From Alicyclobacillus fastidiosus (GTDB lineage Bacteria > Bacillota > Bacilli > Alicyclobacillales > Alicyclobacillaceae), in the NCBI RefSeq assembly GCF_026651875.1, contig NZ_CP104067.1:2604001-2668000 (forward strand): a stretch of DNA of 64,000 bases, in the 5' to 3' direction. Within the stretch, counting starts at the first letter, position 1. Each line of letters opens with the position of its first letter. Of this stretch, positions 52,360-59,439 are shown piece after piece. Made by a program: the position numbers and the translations under genes. Under the pieces are notes generated by a model. That model was not told the origin of the DNA and ran no database searches. It saw only the letters and a list, made by a program, of their open reading frames with translations.

Positions 52360-53673
52360 GTGAATGTGAGCGACGCATTTGCGTGGATCGGCTCCTTGCG
52401 CAGGTTCGGCATCAAGCCGGGACTGGAGCGGGTCGAACGCGTGCTCGACGCCCTTTCGAACCCGCAAGATGGGCTTCGTTTCTACCATGTTGCGGGGACC
52501 AATGGCAAGGGGTCCGTCTGCGCGATGCTGTGTGCGATGTCGATGTCTGCCGGTTATAAAACGGGGTTGTACACCTCGCCCGGCTTTGAAGGGTTTAACG
52601 GCCGAATTTCGGTCAATCAGCAGGCGATTGATGACCAGTCGTTCACACGCTATGCGACGGTCGTCAAACACGCCATCGAACAGGTCACGGTGGGGGATCC
52701 ACTCACGGAATTTGAGGTTCTCACGGTGATGGCGTTACTGTACTTTCGCGATCAGGCAGTTGACGCGGTGGTGTGGGAAACGGGCCTCGGCGGGCGATAC
52801 GATGCGACGAGTGTCGTGCATCCGGTCGTCACGGCCATTACGAACGTTTCGTATGATCACGTCGAGATTTTAGGACCCACTCTAGCCGATATCGCTTATG
52901 ATAAAGCAGGGATTATCAAACCTGGCGTGCCGATTGTGACAGGTGCACAGGGTGAAGCGTACGGTATCATAGAGAAGGTCGCCGAAACGGTCGGAGCCTC
53001 GGTGGTTCGCATCGACAGGGATGTGGAACTGACTCGGGCGGCTTACGACGACCATTATCAAACGCTGCGTTACACAGGGATCGAACATCAATCGTCGGAG
53101 TTTGCGTTATCTTTGTTTGGCCGCCATCAGCTGGCGAATGCCGCAGTGGCCTTGGCCATGTTTGAACTGGCGCACCCGAATCTCGATGAGACTGCGTGGG
53201 AGCGCGCTGTCGCATCGTTGCGCACCATTCGCTGGCCATTGCGGTTTGAGGTGTTCGATCACCGCGGGACGCCAGTGGTCTTGGACGGAGCGCACAATCC
53301 GGCAGCTGCCCGTGCGCTGGCGCTCGGCTTGAACGAGTTTTCTGCTGCGTTGTCGCAAAAGTCGTTGTGGCATATGGTGATCGGAGTGTTTCGCGACAAG
53401 GATGCTAGGTCGATGTTTGAAGAGGTACTGCCCCTCGCACAGGATGTGGTGGTCTGTCGGCCGAATCACGTCAGAGGGGCAGACCCTGAGGCCATCAAAA
53501 ATCTGATTGGTGAGTTGGGCCCTCATCTGTCGATTCGCGTTATCGAGCAGCCGCTGGCTGCCGTGCAGGCTGCCCTTGAGGCGCCGGGACCTCTCGTCAT
53601 CTGGGGTAACTTGCATATGGTGGAAGACGCGAGGAAAGCTATTGCTAAATTGGAAATGAACTACTGGACATGA
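52360..53673 (+). CDS. folC: Folylpolyglutamate synthase/dihydrofolate synthase
   Basis: A 437-residue Mur-ligase-fold enzyme adding glutamates to folates. IKPGLERVERVLDAL, the P-loop YHVAGTNGKGSVCAM (~42-56), LYTSPGFEGFNGRISVN, ETGLGGRYDATSV and the C-terminal VLDGAHNPAAARALA are present. GTG 52360 is chosen for GAGGTG six bases upstream; GTG 52351 is also in frame. It follows valS as in B. subtilis and overlaps murC. Confidence 0.94.
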   Translation: MNVSDAFAWIGSLRRFGIKPGLERVERVLDALSNPQDGLRFYHVAGTNGKGSVCAMLCAMSMSAGYKTGLYTSPGFEGFNGRISVNQQAIDDQSFTRYATVVKHAIEQVTVGDPLTEFEVLTVMALLYFRDQAVDAVVWETGLGGRYDATSVVHPVVTAITNVSYDHVEILGPTLADIAYDKAGIIKPGVPIVTGAQGEAYGIIEKVAETVGASVVRIDRDVELTRAAYDDHYQTLRYTGIEHQSSEFALSLFGRHQLANAAVALAMFELAHPNLDETAWERAVASLRTIRWPLRFEVFDHRGTPVVLDGAHNPAAARALALGLNEFSAALSQKSLWHMVIGVFRDKDARSMFEEVLPLAQDVVVCRPNHVRGADPEAIKNLIGELGPHLSIRVIEQPLAAVQAALEAPGPLVIWGNLHMVEDARKAIAKLEMNYWT

Positions 53674-55079
53674 GGACGGTGAGGCGCGTGCGCGGTTCGC
53701 AACACGTGCATTTTGTAGGCATTGGTGGTTATGGGATGAGTGCCATCGCTCGTGTCATGCTGGATTTGGGATATCAAGTCTCCGGGTCGGACGTATCGCG
53801 TCAGGAGTTGACGGATCGTCTTGCGGCTCGTGGTGCCAACATTTTTTACGGGCATGACGGAGGGCAAGTCGAAGGTGCGGACATTGTGGTACACAGTACT
53901 GCAGTAAAGAAGGACAATGTGGAGTTGCTCGAGGCGCGGGCCCGGAACATTCCAGTCATTCATCGCAGCGAAATGCTCGCTCGGCTGATGCAAGACCGAA
54001 TCGGCGTTGCAGTCACTGGAGCGCATGGCAAAACCACGACGACCTCCATGATTGCATATATGATGGAGCGCAACAATTTAGACCCGACTTTTGTCATCGG
54101 CGGTGTCGTCTCGAACATTGGCGACAACGCAAAGGCTGGCGGTGGTCAGTTTGTCGTGGCCGAGGCCGATGAATCGGATGGATCATTTTTGCACTACCGC
54201 CCGGCGATCGCCGTGGTGACTAACGTAGAAGCCGACCACTTGGAACACTACGACGGCAAATTCGAGAATTTGAAAAATGCGTATAGGACGTTCATTCAGC
54301 AGATCCCTGAAAGCGGCTTGGCCGTCTTGTCAGCAGATGATGTGCATTTGCAGGAATTGAAGTCCGAATCTCACGCACGTGTAGTCACCTATGGATTTTC
54401 TGACGATGCGTTCATTCAGGCGCGTAACGTGCAGTTGTTGGATCGAACCAGTTCTTCGGAAGTGTACGTAGGCGGCGAGTTCGTCGGACGATTGTTGCTC
54501 TCGCTCCCTGGCGAGCACAACGTGTTAAACGCGCTTGCGGCAGTAGCCGTCGGCCGCGAAGCGGGGCTCTCATTTAATCAAATTGCCATGGCACTAGCGG
54601 AGTTCCACGGGGCGAAACGTCGCTTTCAGGTGATCGCCGAGGCGAACAACCTGCTGGTGATTGACGATTACGCGCACCACCCAACTGAAATCAGCGCGAC
54701 GATCGCCGCGGCAAAGGCGACAGGGCGTCGGATTGTAGCGGTCTTTCAGCCGCAACGATACACGCGGACCTACTTCCTGTTTGATGCGTTTGCCCGTTCG
54801 TTTTCGCAGGCGGACGAAGTGATTATCTCGGAGATTTATTCTCCAGCGGGTGAGCAACAAATCGAGGGCGTGACCGCGGAGCGGCTTGCGGCCGAAATCC
54901 GCAAGCAGAGCAATCCTCGGACGCAATATCTCGGGACGCAAGATGAGATCTTTGCATATCTTCGCTCGTCCATCCGACCTGGAGATCTGGTTCTCACGAT
55001 GGGGGCCGGCGACATTTGGAAGGTCGCCGAGCGGCTCGGAGATGATTTGGAGCGGACTTCGCGAAAGGCTCTGGTTTAA
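53670..55079 (+). CDS. murC: UDP-N-acetylmuramate-L-alanine ligase
   Basis: A 469-residue cytoplasmic ligase adding L-Ala to UDP-MurNAc. FVGIGGYGMSAIARVML (~16-32) binds the UDP moiety. The ATP loop is VTGAHGKTTTTSMIAY (~113-128), VAEADESDGSFL binds metal, and DDYAHHPTEISATIAAA (~332) is the C-domain signature. ATG 53670 overlaps the folC stop (ATGA). In B. subtilis murC is not at this place. Confidence 0.96.
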   Translation: MRTVRRVRGSQHVHFVGIGGYGMSAIARVMLDLGYQVSGSDVSRQELTDRLAARGANIFYGHDGGQVEGADIVVHSTAVKKDNVELLEARARNIPVIHRSEMLARLMQDRIGVAVTGAHGKTTTTSMIAYMMERNNLDPTFVIGGVVSNIGDNAKAGGGQFVVAEADESDGSFLHYRPAIAVVTNVEADHLEHYDGKFENLKNAYRTFIQQIPESGLAVLSADDVHLQELKSESHARVVTYGFSDDAFIQARNVQLLDRTSSSEVYVGGEFVGRLLLSLPGEHNVLNALAAVAVGREAGLSFNQIAMALAEFHGAKRRFQVIAEANNLLVIDDYAHHPTEISATIAAAKATGRRIVAVFQPQRYTRTYFLFDAFARSFSQADEVIISEIYSPAGEQQIEGVTAERLAAEIRKQSNPRTQYLGTQDEIFAYLRSSIRPGDLVLTMGAGDIWKVAERLGDDLERTSRKALV

Positions 55080-55110
55080 ATCGGACTACGAGCGCTTGAG
55101 TAAGTAAAAA

Positions 55111-55271
55111 GGGGCTGTCCCAAAAGGGTCGTGCCAAATCATCCAGTCCCAAAATTTTATGCAAAAGCCTCCAAAACCACTATAAAAGTGGAGATGGAGG
55201 CTTTTTGTTTTGGTAAATTCTCAGCCGAAGTGGGGCTCCAAAAATCGAAAATTGACTTTTGGGACACCCCC
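55111..55271. repeat. MITE-like element, copy 1
   Basis: A 161-bp element with terminal inverted repeats: GGGGCTGTCCCAAAAG at the left and CTTTTGGGACACCCCC at the right, 15 of 16 positions complementary. It contains a nested hairpin of the terminator type (AAAAGCCTCC...GGAGGCTTTTT, 55162-55206, with inner CCACT/AGTGG). Copy 2 at 56893-57053 is the same length and orientation and differs at only a few positions. The ends resemble those of common Bacillota insertion sequences; the family is not certain. No transposase. Confidence 0.85.
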
Positions 55272-55448
55272 TTTGCATGGTGGAAGCGATTCGTACTCAT
55301 TCATAACCACAACCTTCAACTCATTTACTTAAGAAGTGCGATCATTGTTCTTCGTTGTACAGACCTAGAACAACACCAACTGATTTTGGTATCACGAAGG
55401 CATGTCCTACTTAGCATACTGAACTACGCGACAGGGGCGGAGCAAAAA
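55272..55448 (+). other. Upstream region of the decarboxylase gene
   Basis: 177 bases between the MITE and the decarboxylase start, more A/T-rich than neighbouring genes. No separate gene or hairpin is evident; it must hold any promoter not supplied by the element. Confidence 0.4.
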
Positions 55449-56852
55449 ATGTCACATTGGAACCCACGCCGTACGCAAATGAAGTTGCCTCCAGAACTGA
55501 CTATAAATCCACTGTTCACTCGCGAGGGAGAACAGAACGTTCCGCGGTTTCACATCCGTGATCAAGGAATGCTTCCTGAGACAGCATATCAAATTATCCA
55601 TGATGAACTCGCACTAGATGGCAATGCCCGCTTAAATCTTGCAACATTTGTTGGTACATGGATGGAACCCGCTGCCGATCTCCTTTACGCCGAAACATTC
55701 GACAAGAACATCATTGATAAAGATGAGTACCCTCAGACGGCAGCCATTGAGGAGCGATGTATCCGCATTTTAGCGAATCTCTGGCATTCACCTCACCCAA
55801 TGAGTACGGTGGGGGTTTCGACGACGGGATCGTCAGAAGGATGTATGTTGGGGGGGATCGCATTAAAGCGACGCTGGCAACATGCTCGAAAGAAACAAGG
55901 AAAGCCGATTGATCGGCCAAATATTGTGTTTAGTTCTGCTGTTCACGTCGTTTGGGAAAAGTTCGCGAACTATTGGGATGTTGAGCCGCGTTATGTGAAT
56001 ATCACCAAGGAGCGTCCTTATTTGGACCCCAAGGGCGTTCGTGATGCCGTGGACGAAAATACGATTGGTGTCATTGCGATTCTCGGGGTGACTTACACTG
56101 GGATTTACGAACCGGTTGCCGAGATTGCCAAAGCGCTAGATGATTTACAGGCTAGGACGGGTCTCGATATTCCAATGCATGTAGATGCTGCTTCCGGAGG
56201 GTTTATCGCTCCTTTTCTCCAACCAGACTTGGTCTGGGACTTTCGATTACCTCGAGTAAAGTCCATCAATGTTTCCGGGCACAAATATGGTTTGGTCTAC
56301 CCTGGAATAGGATGGGTAATTTGGCGAAAAGCTAAAGATTTTCCTGACGATCTCGTCTTTCGTGTCTCCTATTTAGGCGGTAATATGCCGACCTTCGGCT
56401 TAAACTTCTCTCGCCCCGGCGCACAAGTGCTCCTGCAATACTACAATTTTCTTCGTTTAGGCAGAGAGGGCTACTACCAAGTGCAAAGGACATGCCAGTC
56501 GGTGGCAAAATTACTGAGTCGAGAGATTTCCAAAATGGGACCGTTTAAGATACTTACATCCGGAACCGATACTCCTGTAATCACGTGGCAGATGAAAACT
56601 GACTACACATCAAAATGGAATCTTTATGACCTATCCCGACAACTACGGACGTATGGATGGCAAGTTCCTGCTTATTCCATGCCCCCAGATTTAGAGGATA
56701 TCACGGTGATGCGCGTTGTAGTTCGAAACGGATTTTCCATCGATCTCGCTCATTTATTCCTCCTGAATCTCGAACAGGCCGTTACATTTCTCGATTCCTC
56801 GCCTACAACTACGCCACATGGAAGCAAAACAGACAATGGATTTCATCATTAA
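55449..56852 (+). CDS. gadB: Glutamate decarboxylase-like PLP enzyme
   Basis: A 467-residue group II PLP decarboxylase. IIHDELALDGNARLNLATFVGTWMEP (~50-75), DKDEYPQTAAIEERC, GSSEGCMLGGIALKRRW, HVDAASGGFIAPFL and the PLP lysine in NVSGHKYGLVYPGIGW (~275-290) match glutamate decarboxylase. The reaction makes GABA and CO2 and consumes a proton, the basis of acid resistance. ATG 55449 follows GGGGCGGAG; the frame is open back through the MITE without a better start. Base composition is visibly lower in G+C (23 of 60 at 56281-56340). No GABA antiporter gene is adjacent. Confidence 0.9.
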   Translation: MSHWNPRRTQMKLPPELTINPLFTREGEQNVPRFHIRDQGMLPETAYQIIHDELALDGNARLNLATFVGTWMEPAADLLYAETFDKNIIDKDEYPQTAAIEERCIRILANLWHSPHPMSTVGVSTTGSSEGCMLGGIALKRRWQHARKKQGKPIDRPNIVFSSAVHVVWEKFANYWDVEPRYVNITKERPYLDPKGVRDAVDENTIGVIAILGVTYTGIYEPVAEIAKALDDLQARTGLDIPMHVDAASGGFIAPFLQPDLVWDFRLPRVKSINVSGHKYGLVYPGIGWVIWRKAKDFPDDLVFRVSYLGGNMPTFGLNFSRPGAQVLLQYYNFLRLGREGYYQVQRTCQSVAKLLSREISKMGPFKILTSGTDTPVITWQMKTDYTSKWNLYDLSRQLRTYGWQVPAYSMPPDLEDITVMRVVVRNGFSIDLAHLFLLNLEQAVTFLDSSPTTTPHGSKTDNGFHH

Positions 56853-56892
56853 ATACAATAAATTCGTATGTAACCTTCATGAAAAGGCAGAA

Positions 56893-57053
56893 GGGGCTGT
56901 CCCAAAAGGGTCGTGCCAAATCATCCAGTCCCAAAATTTTATGCAAAAGCCTCCAAAACCACTGTAAAAGTGGAGATGGAGGCTTTTTGTTTTGGTAAAT
57001 TCTCAGCCGAAGTGAGGCTCCAAAAATCGAAAATTGACTTTTGGGATACCCCC
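56893..57053. repeat. MITE-like element, copy 2
   Basis: Same 161-bp length and orientation as copy 1. Visible differences are G for A at the inner hairpin (ACTGTAAAAG), AGTGAGGC for AGTGGGGC, and GGGATACCCCC at the right end. It also carries the internal terminator-type hairpin. It stands 40 bases after the decarboxylase stop and may terminate its transcript. Confidence 0.85.
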
Positions 57054-57088
57054 TTTGATGTGAAGCCGCGGCGATGCGATAGACTTAA

Positions 57089-57280
57089 TTATCGATATCT
57101 CCGATTGCGCCGCGGCCTACGATTCAAGGACTCGGCTGCGCGAGCATAGAGGTAATACGCCGCGGCAATGACGAGTGCGAGAAACGCTATTTTCAGCACG
57201 AACGCGACAAATGCAGAGATCACGAACAGGAGCACGATAAACCCGAGTGCGCTTACCAGGAATGAAGGTCGGCGATACAT
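57089..57280 (-). CDS. Small basic-tailed membrane protein
   Basis: A 63-residue protein with a hydrophobic core (SALGFIVLLFVISAFVAFVLKIAFLALVIAAAYYL) and a very basic C-terminus ending RRPRRNRRYR. AAGGGGG lies eight bases before the ATG on the minus strand. Family not recognised. It is divergent from comC and resembles in layout the small membrane protein at 48477-48638. Confidence 0.6.
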   Translation of the reverse strand: MYRRPSFLVSALGFIVLLFVISAFVAFVLKIAFLALVIAAAYYLYARAAESLNRRPRRNRRYR

Positions 57281-57420
57281 ATCTACAACCCCCTTACATG
57301 TGCTTGAGCAGGTCTACTCTATTTCTACAATTATATCACATCGTGTAACATCCCCCGTTTTGCGCAGGATTATCGGCTATGGTGTCGAATTTCGCTGTAC
57401 CAGATGGGGGGAGAGCTCAA

Positions 57421-58188
57421 TTGGCGTTGCAAGGCTTGATGTCTCTATATCTATTTTTCGTGGGCGCGGTGTTTGGTTCGTTTGCGACGCTAGTAGGCGA
57501 CCGGATTCCGAGTGGGCAATCGATCGTGCGGCCGGGATCGAGCTGTAATCACTGCGGTTTACCACTGCGCGCTTGGCACTTGATCCCCGTCGTTTCGTGG
57601 GTGGTCTTGCGAGGGCGTTGCACGTCGTGCCGGGCGCCCATTCCCATGCGATACCCCGCACAGGAAGCGCTGTTGGGCGGGGCGGTCGTCCTTTCTGTTT
57701 GGCATCGTCAAAGCGTCCTTCTGACGCTGACGTGGTGTGGTTTGTGGTTTGTGCTGACAGTCGCCATCAGTTCCGACTTTACGAAACTGATTGTGCCGAA
57801 CTGGTTGACATACCCGAGTGCGGTAGTCCTGTACATCTCCTCAGCCCTTTCCTGTGGTAGCTTTCTTCACCCGGTGTTCGGAATGCTTGGTGGATTTGCG
57901 ATGATTTTCGTCGTCCACCTGATCTCGGGCGGGAAGATGGGGTTAGGCGACGCGAAACTCTATCTCAGCATTGGTGCAGTGCTCGGAGTCGCGTTGACGG
58001 TCGAATCGTTCATACTCGCGTGCCTGTTTGGTGCGGTCATGGGTGGGATACTCCGCTTGACAGGCCACATCGGGCGCAAGCAATATGTCCCGTTTGTCCC
58101 ATTTATTGCACTGGGCGTGGCAGGTGCACAGTTTGTCTTTGGCGCCTTCCCGCAGTGGTATCTGCATCATATTCTCGGCGTTCTCTAG
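57421..58188 (+). CDS. comC: Type IV prepilin peptidase (ComC/PilD)
   Basis: A 255-residue integral membrane aspartyl peptidase. The cytoplasmic loop has two zinc CxxC pairs, CNHCGLPL (~41) and CTSCRAP (~65), typical of enzymes that also N-methylate the new N-terminus. The two catalytic Asp are in SSDFTKLIVPN and GKMGLGDAKLY. It processes ComG/Pil pseudopilins for DNA uptake. TTG 57421 lies seven bases after GGGAG. Position between folC/murC and spoIIB matches B. subtilis comC. Confidence 0.93.
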   Translation: MALQGLMSLYLFFVGAVFGSFATLVGDRIPSGQSIVRPGSSCNHCGLPLRAWHLIPVVSWVVLRGRCTSCRAPIPMRYPAQEALLGGAVVLSVWHRQSVLLTLTWCGLWFVLTVAISSDFTKLIVPNWLTYPSAVVLYISSALSCGSFLHPVFGMLGGFAMIFVVHLISGGKMGLGDAKLYLSIGAVLGVALTVESFILACLFGAVMGGILRLTGHIGRKQYVPFVPFIALGVAGAQFVFGAFPQWYLHHILGVL

Positions 58189-58357
58189 CCCCTATAAATC
58201 CACTCGCCGCGCGCTATTCCTCTGGAAATTGGCACTTCTTGTCGGAAAGTCGATAGTTTTCCACGGGTACCAGCCGACATGTTTCAACACCTATTGTCAT
58301 ACCATCTGATATACACTATCCCCGATCCACAAGAAAAGCTGGCTGACAAAAGTTGTC

Positions 58358-58386
58358 TTGCATTTGCATAAGGGGACCGATATACT
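58358..58386 (+). promoter_or_regulatory. Sigma-A promoter of the G5/3D protein
   Basis: TTGCAT, 17 bases, TATACT; about 67 bases before the start codon. The remainder of 58189-58452 shows no gene. Confidence 0.6.
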
Positions 58387-58452
58387 ATCCCCAGCCCCGG
58401 AGTCCCCTATCAGCCTTCTTTCTCTCGTGAGTAGTTAGGAAGAGGTGATGGA

Positions 58453-59439
58453 GTGCGTCTACCAAAGTCGAAAGCCGTGTACGCCACAGCTGCAGCAGCA
58501 CTTACGCTGCTGGGCGGCGCCGCTACCACGTATGGTGCTGCGTTCAAGACGGTGACGGTCCAAGACAGCGGGCAACGCAAGACGTTACGTGGATTTTGCA
58601 CAGGCACGGTAGGACAGTTTCTCGAAAAGTACGGTATCCACGTAAATGAGAGAGAGCGCGTCAGCCCGGCGCTTGATAGCCCTGTGCGGGACGACATGAC
58701 GGTCGAGATCGAAGATCCGAAGTCAATCACGATCAACGACCAGGGTCACCTGGTCAACATTTCGACCTTTGATACGTCAGTGGGGCAACTCTTGAAGGAT
58801 GAGGGGATTACCCTCACCGACTCGGATCACGTGAGTGTCCCGGTCAGTTCAGAACTGTCGAATGGAGAATTTTTCTCTATTCACAGCACATTGCAAAAAG
58901 TGTCGACCGAGACGCAGGAAATACCATATCAGACCATACGTCGCCGAACGTCAGAATTGACTTCTGGAAACGAGCAAGTGGTGACGCACGGTGTGACAGG
59001 GTTACTAAAGGTCAAGACAACAAGCGTCTATCGAGACGGGCATAAGGTCTCGCAAAGTATCACAAAGCAAGTCGTTCGCAACCCGGTCGATAGTGTAGTG
59101 GAGGTTGGAACCGCTCCGGAGGTTCATCACTACACGCTGGCGAGCCGAAGTGATTCCCCTGCCAGCAGCTTGTTCAAATCGTCGATGACGGTGCTCGCCA
59201 CCGCGTATTGTGCCGGAGGCACCACAGCTTCCGGAATACCAGCGCAACCAGGGGTCATCGCGGTAGACCCGAGCGTGATTCCACTGGGTACCAAAGTATA
59301 TGTCCCAGGCGTTGGTGAACTGGTCGCTGCCGATACGGGTGGGGCGATTGTCGGTAACCATATCGACATCTGCATGTCATCTGAGGCTGCAGCGGAAAGT
59401 TGGGGAGAACGAACTATCACAATCTACATCCTGAGTTAA
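58453..59439 (+). CDS. Cell-wall protein with DUF348, G5 and 3D domains (YabE-like)
   Basis: A 328-residue exported protein with a signal/anchor segment (~9-29, AVYATAAAALTLLGGAATTYG). Two DUF348 ubiquitin-like repeats follow (~31-140), then a G5 domain (~145-215) and a C-terminal 3D domain (~240-328) with the three Asp: AVDPSVIPLG, AADTGG, HIDIC. This is the layout of YabE/YocH/Rpf-type wall hydrolases that cleave peptidoglycan. GTG start with GAGGTGAT upstream. It sits in the comC-pilT-spoIIB interval, an insertion relative to B. subtilis. Confidence 0.9.
   Translation: MRLPKSKAVYATAAAALTLLGGAATTYGAAFKTVTVQDSGQRKTLRGFCTGTVGQFLEKYGIHVNERERVSPALDSPVRDDMTVEIEDPKSITINDQGHLVNISTFDTSVGQLLKDEGITLTDSDHVSVPVSSELSNGEFFSIHSTLQKVSTETQEIPYQTIRRRTSELTSGNEQVVTHGVTGLLKVKTTSVYRDGHKVSQSITKQVVRNPVDSVVEVGTAPEVHHYTLASRSDSPASSLFKSSMTVLATAYCAGGTTASGIPAQPGVIAVDPSVIPLGTKVYVPGVGELVAADTGGAIVGNHIDICMSSEAAAESWGERTITIYILS

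Follow-up and report, generated by a model that had tools for sequence, protein, structure and literature searches.

In the 64,000-nucleotide stretch of Alicyclobacillus fastidiosus DNA that was analyzed (the window), a glutamate decarboxylase gene (gad) lies between two nearly identical 161-bp elements, E1 and E2. The segment E1-gad-E2 (positions 55111-57053, 1,943 bp) is best explained, with a probability of about 0.6, as a composite MITE transposon that was moved in trans by an IS1182 transposase and replaced the terminator of murC. The structure of the unit is confirmed; the manner of its insertion is read from four empty sites.

The left element, E1, occupies positions 55111..55271 of the forward strand and the right element, E2, positions 56893..57053 of the same strand. 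They have the same orientation and show 3 differences over 161 bp (98% identical); before trimming to this length they appeared as 174-nt direct repeats at 97%. The 16-bp TIRs of E1 (55111-55126 and 55256-55271; GGGGCTGTCCCAAAAG and CTTTTGGGACACCCCC) are complementary at 15 of 16 positions, with 1 mismatch, and its inner hairpin is located at 55163-55205. In E2 the TIRs (56893-56908 and 57038-57053) are complementary at 14 of 16 positions, with 2 mismatches, and the inner hairpin extends from 56945 to 56987. The initial annotation had described two almost identical 161-bp elements with 16-bp TIRs of their own, and this description holds. A comparison with Rfam at gathering scores gave no match in positions 53000-59000.

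When a 181-bp query containing E1 was compared with the genome that holds the window (G000, 6.04 Mb in 4 contigs), 21 matches were obtained at 19 places, E1 and E2 among them, indicating that the repeat is beyond chance. Two of the 21 were opposite-strand hits within other hits. Near-complete copies number 12, namely E1, E2 and ten others (L003-L012); the additional ones found in this search, which the initial annotation had proposed, belong to a separate subfamily, 96-100% identical mutually and 84-88% identical to E1 and E2. Among 41 genomes of the family, its own included, no further element of the E1/E2 type was detected, with 20 of 42 candidates scored in G000 and 20 of 33 in the closest relative, G007. 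At all 3 positions that distinguish E1 from E2, one element or the other has the base shared by the 12 remaining aligned copies, indicating that both derive from one sequence.

Several observations were made on the wider repeat family. Two of the ten L003-L012 copies sit on contigs C2 and C3, which may be plasmids to judge from their sizes. L004 and L005 (G000:C1:622604 and G000:C1:570673) share their flanking sequence, in opposite orientation and at a distance of about 52 kb, and are part of an inverted duplication. The inner hairpin also occurs without TIRs in G007 (L071, L072, L073, L075 and L077), and matches to it were seen in a genome of another genus, G027 (L201 and L203); these stray hairpins are either decayed copies or an older terminator-like repeat. 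Furthermore, an old, decayed element is located between the same two genes, clpC- and radA-like by eye, in both G000 (L014, G000:C1:362043) and G007 (L250). Since the decayed element is common to both genomes at this site, the element family is probably older than their split.

E1 and E2 are short, have no transposase gene, carry TIRs and belong to a family of multiple copies, as expected of MITEs. Judged from their terminal sequences they are of the IS1182 type, because the ends match those of IS1182-family insertion sequences in the same genome. A 15-base end pattern was found with at most 1 mismatch at 35 places in G000, and the reversed pattern at none. Among eight such stretches examined were two full-length insertion sequences with both ends present, L052 (1,553 bp) and L054 (1,803 bp), so that the full insertion sequence with the same ends that had been proposed for a search does exist in this genome. 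The 16-bp ends of the elements are identical at L052; at L054 a single mismatch affects one of the two ends. The open frame within L054 encodes an IS1182-family transposase (NF033551, 467.9 bits against a cut-off of 270); the frame in L052 is split. No likeness of the elements to L052 was seen beyond the 16-bp TIR when the ends were read by eye, and the E1 query matched neither L052 nor L054; the two comparisons gave no sign of an origin by internal deletion and no parental insertion sequence. At L053:1971-1996 (G000:C1:4258970), two IS1182-type ends abut to form a 26-bp palindrome, GGGGGTGTCCCAAAAGGGACACCCCC, with a four-base loop, which may be a minimal element, an excision scar or a bare hairpin.

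The flanks of the unit are syntenic with those of other genomes of the genus. The gene on the left, murC (53670..55079, forward strand), has 92-97% amino acid identity in G007, G004 and G013 and 86% in G006; the comC-like gene on the right (57379..58188, forward strand) has 84% in G007 and 56-66% in G004, G013 and G006. Both names are those of the initial annotation, which rightly called this backbone conserved. In all four comparable relatives (G007, G004, G013 and G006) the two genes are adjacent, with neither gad nor the elements between them, and the proposal of a mobile unit thus withstood the empty-site comparison at this junction. In the other ten of the 14 same-genus relatives, no murC was detected within 1.5 kb of comC, and these genomes fall outside the junction comparison.

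At the place of the unit, the G007 junction carries a hairpin, AAAAAGGGGAATCCCCTCCT-CAAAT-AGGAGGGGATTCCCCTTTTT, with a 20-bp stem that starts 27 nt after the murC stop and a fold energy of -36.8 kcal/mol with its flanks. A hairpin was also seen by eye 27-31 nt after the murC stop in G004, G013 and G006. In the window, the murC stop is followed by 26 nt, by AAAAA (55106..55110, forward strand), which aligns with the A-tract bordering the G007 hairpin at its 5' foot, and then by E1. Past E2 stands TTT (57054..57056, forward strand), which aligns with the T-tract at the 3' foot, and then the sequence that follows the hairpin in G007. This alignment of the flanks indicates that E1-gad-E2 occupies the place of the hairpin. 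The junctions are placed with an accuracy of a few bases, and conservation with G007 is poor over the 26 nt that precede the A-tract. The target-site duplication that the initial annotation had proposed to look for is not visible around the unit by eye in comparison with G007. None is to be expected if insertion proceeds as reported for IS1272, because the stem-loop is then replaced.

The comparison of occupied and empty sites was tried at eleven sites: the unit, L010, L052, L066, L059, L011, L012, L014, L004 (left flank), L054 and L057. L003, L005, L006, L007, L008, L009 and the right flank of L004 stood outside it. Both sides were readable at four of the eleven, the unit, L010, L052 and L066, and in all four cases the empty site is a hairpin. 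For the MITE L010 the empty site in G007 is the hairpin ACCAGTCCAAGTGGACTGGT, and for the full-length insertion sequence L052 it is AAACCGAGCCACGAGTGGCTCGGTTT, with an 11-bp stem. For L066, a MITE of G007, the empty site in G000 is a terminator-like hairpin with an 18-bp stem, ATAAAAAGGCTACCCTT...AAGGGTAGCCTTTTTAT, accompanied by A- and T-tracts. No target duplication was seen by eye at any of these four sites. Perfect stems of at least 8 bp with loops of 3-10 cover 0.6% of the window, and against this whole-window baseline four hairpins at four sites are beyond chance, even with a several-fold enrichment of hairpins in intergenic DNA. Additionally, the insertion sequence L059, readable on one side only, starts at the foot of a G007 hairpin or no more than 3 nt from it; its right end was not found in the compared stretch. 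The remaining sites were unusable. The left and right flanks of L011 match different G007 loci, those of L012 are 5.5 kb apart in G007, and in that genome the L014 position is occupied by an old element. The left flank of L004 had no match, L054 could be read only from its right flank, with G007 diverging near the insertion sequence, and the left flank of L057 matched G004 and 47 bases of G007.

The possibility was also considered that remnants of the target stem are left in the flanks. A permutation test for residual complementarity between left and right flanks was negative, with a value of 36 over 13 junctions against a mean of 34.3 in shuffles, 7905 of 20000 of which were as high. These were 13 of 16 junctions, the omitted ones being L005, which duplicates L004, and E1 and E2 taken singly, and only L054 shows a residual stem, of 11 nt. 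Residual complementarity is not known to define such replacement where the whole stem is removed. The gene context of the copies, determined from automatic ORFs of at least 90 aa, is mixed. Neighboring genes are convergent at L004, L005, L006, L008, L009 and L066, divergent at L003, L007 and L011, and in the same direction at L010 and L052; one side is missing at L012 and L054, and the scans of L005 and L066 caught one element end only. The negative permutation test and this mixture, with three copies between divergent genes, count against a habit of inserting at hairpins.

The cargo gene (55449..56852, forward strand, ATG at 55449) is intact and encodes a PLP-dependent glutamate decarboxylase of 467 aa (TIGR01788, PF00282). 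Its product scores 634.7 bits with TIGR01788, for which the cut-off is 380.4, matches PDB sequences of glutamate decarboxylase alpha and beta with E of about 1e-141, and has HKYG at residues 278-281. The GC3 of gad is 0.454, compared with a mean of 0.652 (sd 0.039) for the 43 other automatic ORFs of at least 200 codons in the window, none of which is lower; the gene is indeed poorer in G+C than its neighbors, as first noted. However, low G+C was rejected as proof of a recent transfer. A second gad of G000 (gad2) has a GC3 of 0.463 and the gad of G007 one of 0.478, so that the composition does not date a transfer. The absence of gad from this locus in all four comparable relatives is in line with acquisition; its composition is not diagnostic, and the tree described below likewise weakens the case for a recent one.

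The same relatives bear on the possibility that gad is an ordinary, vertically inherited gene that the relatives have lost, the elements being incidental. A tree of 84 GAD proteins places gad in a clade of 20 rows, mostly Bacillaceae and Alicyclobacillaceae (100/98), as vertical descent would have it; within the clade it pairs with Alicyclobacillus sp. ALC3 at weak support (96/67). Of 15 genomes of the genus, 4 were found to carry a gad. However, the four comparable relatives have a hairpin where gad stands here, and the gad that G000 and G007 have in common is a different gene, gad2, with 86% DNA identity between the two genomes and 77% amino acid identity to gad. Vertical inheritance is therefore highly improbable. 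Copies of the element were also noted upstream of both genes of the gad2 type, L008 about 10.5 kb from gad2 (L103) and L067 about 6 kb from the G007 gad (L102); the remaining surroundings differ. The gad of G004 (L105:5993-7473) is in two overlapping frames, with neighbors that are aminotransferase- and permease-like by eye.

Between E1 and gad there is an upstream region of 177 bp (55272..55448, forward strand), in which the promoter scan flagged no site. Over its first 48 bp it is similar to the right flank of L003 (55272-55318 and L106:4706-4752), at 79% and E 7e-4 in the 1.1 Mb compared. The alignment score was 65, whereas 300 shuffles reached at most 56, and no likeness was seen past those bases. 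Searching the whole genome with the 177-bp region (E up to 10) did not return this likeness. L003 is of a different subfamily from E1, yet the likeness starts directly at the edge of the element. Transposase genes are abundant around L003. The resemblance of the two right junctions suggests that the inner junction of E1 was not made at murC and may predate the murC site. Bases 17-151 of the upstream region resemble the sequence upstream of gad2 (score 58, maximum of 44 in 300 shuffles); comparison with the sequences upstream of the gads of G007, G004 and G013 gave nothing above shuffles. On the other side, the 40-bp 3' flank (56853..56892, forward strand) has no strong hairpin of its own, and E2 takes the position in which one would look for the gad terminator. 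The 43-nt stretch between the gad stop and E2 has a fold energy of -2.5 kcal/mol; for the first 100 nt past the stop at five other gad loci, a length that differs from the 43 nt, the values are -26.7 to -44.3 kcal/mol in four and -14.5 kcal/mol in gad2. The weak fold would fit a capture of gad in which E2 replaced the gad terminator, as reported for sh-fabI.

The possibility was considered that gad arrived in some other way and that the elements came later and independently, E1 into the murC terminator and E2 into the gad terminator, their identity reflecting a common source or gene conversion. Single elements do occupy hairpin sites, E2 lies at the expected position of the gad terminator, and a divergence of three positions between the elements agrees with gene conversion. 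However, the sequence to the right of E2 resumes as in G007 just past the murC hairpin, so that the entry point of gad would have to coincide with that hairpin. The L003-like right junction of E1, despite its absence from the genome-wide search, likewise suggests a junction older than the murC site. Independent insertion is accordingly regarded as quite unlikely. Of the two origins that the initial annotation had offered, a composite mobile unit or two independent MITE insertions around the gene, the MITEs and the mobile unit stand, and the composite form is favored.

The composite unit is favored because its outer boundaries coincide with a single G007 hairpin, because E1 and E2 are a private pair, and because the right junction of E1 resembles that of L003. 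Two near-identical elements bound one cargo gene, and the empty site of G007 is consistent with insertion as one unit. A full-length IS1182 copy elsewhere in the genome would supply the transposase in trans, and this would act on the outer ends, the left TIR of E1 and the right TIR of E2. In one transposition step the whole unit would insert into the stem-loop of the murC intrinsic terminator, which would be removed, leaving the neighboring A-tract and T-tract in place. The capture of gad would be earlier, when copies of the element replaced terminators on either side of it, and E1 and E2 would now terminate the transcription of murC and gad, respectively. The 2 mismatches affecting the outer TIR of E2 count against transposition by the outer ends. 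No second E-gad-E locus was found in G000, and the terminator scan gave no hit in E1 or E2.

A further route to the same arrangement is that a single element first replaced the murC terminator and that a circle of one element and gad was later integrated there by homologous recombination, giving E-gad-E. Under such an integration the structure, the flanks and the near-identity of the copies would all be as observed, and in the TnSha work a probe was designed for circular forms of IS1272 and TnSha1. It needs two earlier copies of a subfamily that has no other copy in the 41 family genomes searched (candidates partly scored in G000 and G007), and for this reason it is considered unlikely.

A donor of the unit was sought in other collections. 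Among plasmids there were 30 matching records, none with 80% of the query in one place; among the best 20 of the 30 matches, the best, H1, had 74.1% over 67% and one record fell in the 80-90% band. An exact 28-base pattern was not found in viral contigs. In the 80 named gad loci scanned with flanks of up to 3 kb, taken from the best 80 of 404 relatives, E-like TIRs with at most 2 mismatches were represented by two weak strings, L130 and L142.

A role of gad in acid resistance is plausible by homology, as glutamate decarboxylase would consume protons in an acidophilic host. The best score for GadC (TIGR00910) in G000 was 24 bits, compared with a cut-off of 673.5, which was reached in neither G000 nor G007 and in 2 of 14 control genomes. 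We infer both this role and the termination of transcription by E1 and E2.

It is tentatively proposed, at less than even odds, that IS1182-type MITEs are mobile terminators, which swap places with intrinsic terminators of the host and keep the A- and T-tracts so that termination survives. Pairs of them would carry a gene into a slot downstream of an essential gene, a harmless and low-cost gene gain at the ends of operons. Should the elements indeed act as terminators, new genes could be placed behind essential ones at little cost by units of this kind, which screens based on target duplications would miss. In the literature searched, which included few subscription journals, no title on IS1182-family MITEs replacing stem-loops was found, no report joined this mechanism with that of MITE-bounded composites, and no paper on the murC-gad-comC locus was recognized.

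IS1272 belongs to the IS1182 family (PMC4923244, PMC5678879). Both IS1272 and the fabI-carrying TnSha1 of staphylococci reportedly insert at hairpins, with the stem-loop wholly or partly deleted and no duplication (PMC4923244, PMC5678879), and five of seven TnSha1 target hairpins were confirmed as terminators (PMC4923244). The present unit shares with them the IS1182-family ends, the hairpin target, the loss of the stem-loop and the lack of a target duplication, and with TnSha1 also the carriage of a metabolic gene and, probably, an element at the terminator of the cargo gene. However, TnSha1 consists of one complete IS1272 and a diverged IR upstream of fabI, whereas here both ends are 161-bp MITEs without a transposase and the cargo is a glutamate decarboxylase gene in an Alicyclobacillus-type genome. 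The finding provides sequence-level evidence, from outside the staphylococci, that a full IS1182 copy and 161-bp MITEs both occupy the places of terminator-like hairpins. As in classical composites such as Tn5 (PMC10969869), the cargo lies between two copies of one mobile element, but unlike in Tn5-type composites neither flanking element holds a transposase gene. TIME-COMPs and IMU are composites bounded by Tn3-derived MITEs and moved by a transposase in trans (PMC13367494), and they resemble the unit in that a gene lies between two near-identical, non-autonomous miniature elements. They are of the Tn3 type, usually with 5-bp direct repeats, whereas the ends here are of the IS1182 type and a hairpin is replaced without duplication. 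The unit joins two mechanisms known separately, the hairpin-replacing transposition of IS1272 and TnSha1 and the MITE-bounded composites represented by the TIME-COMPs.
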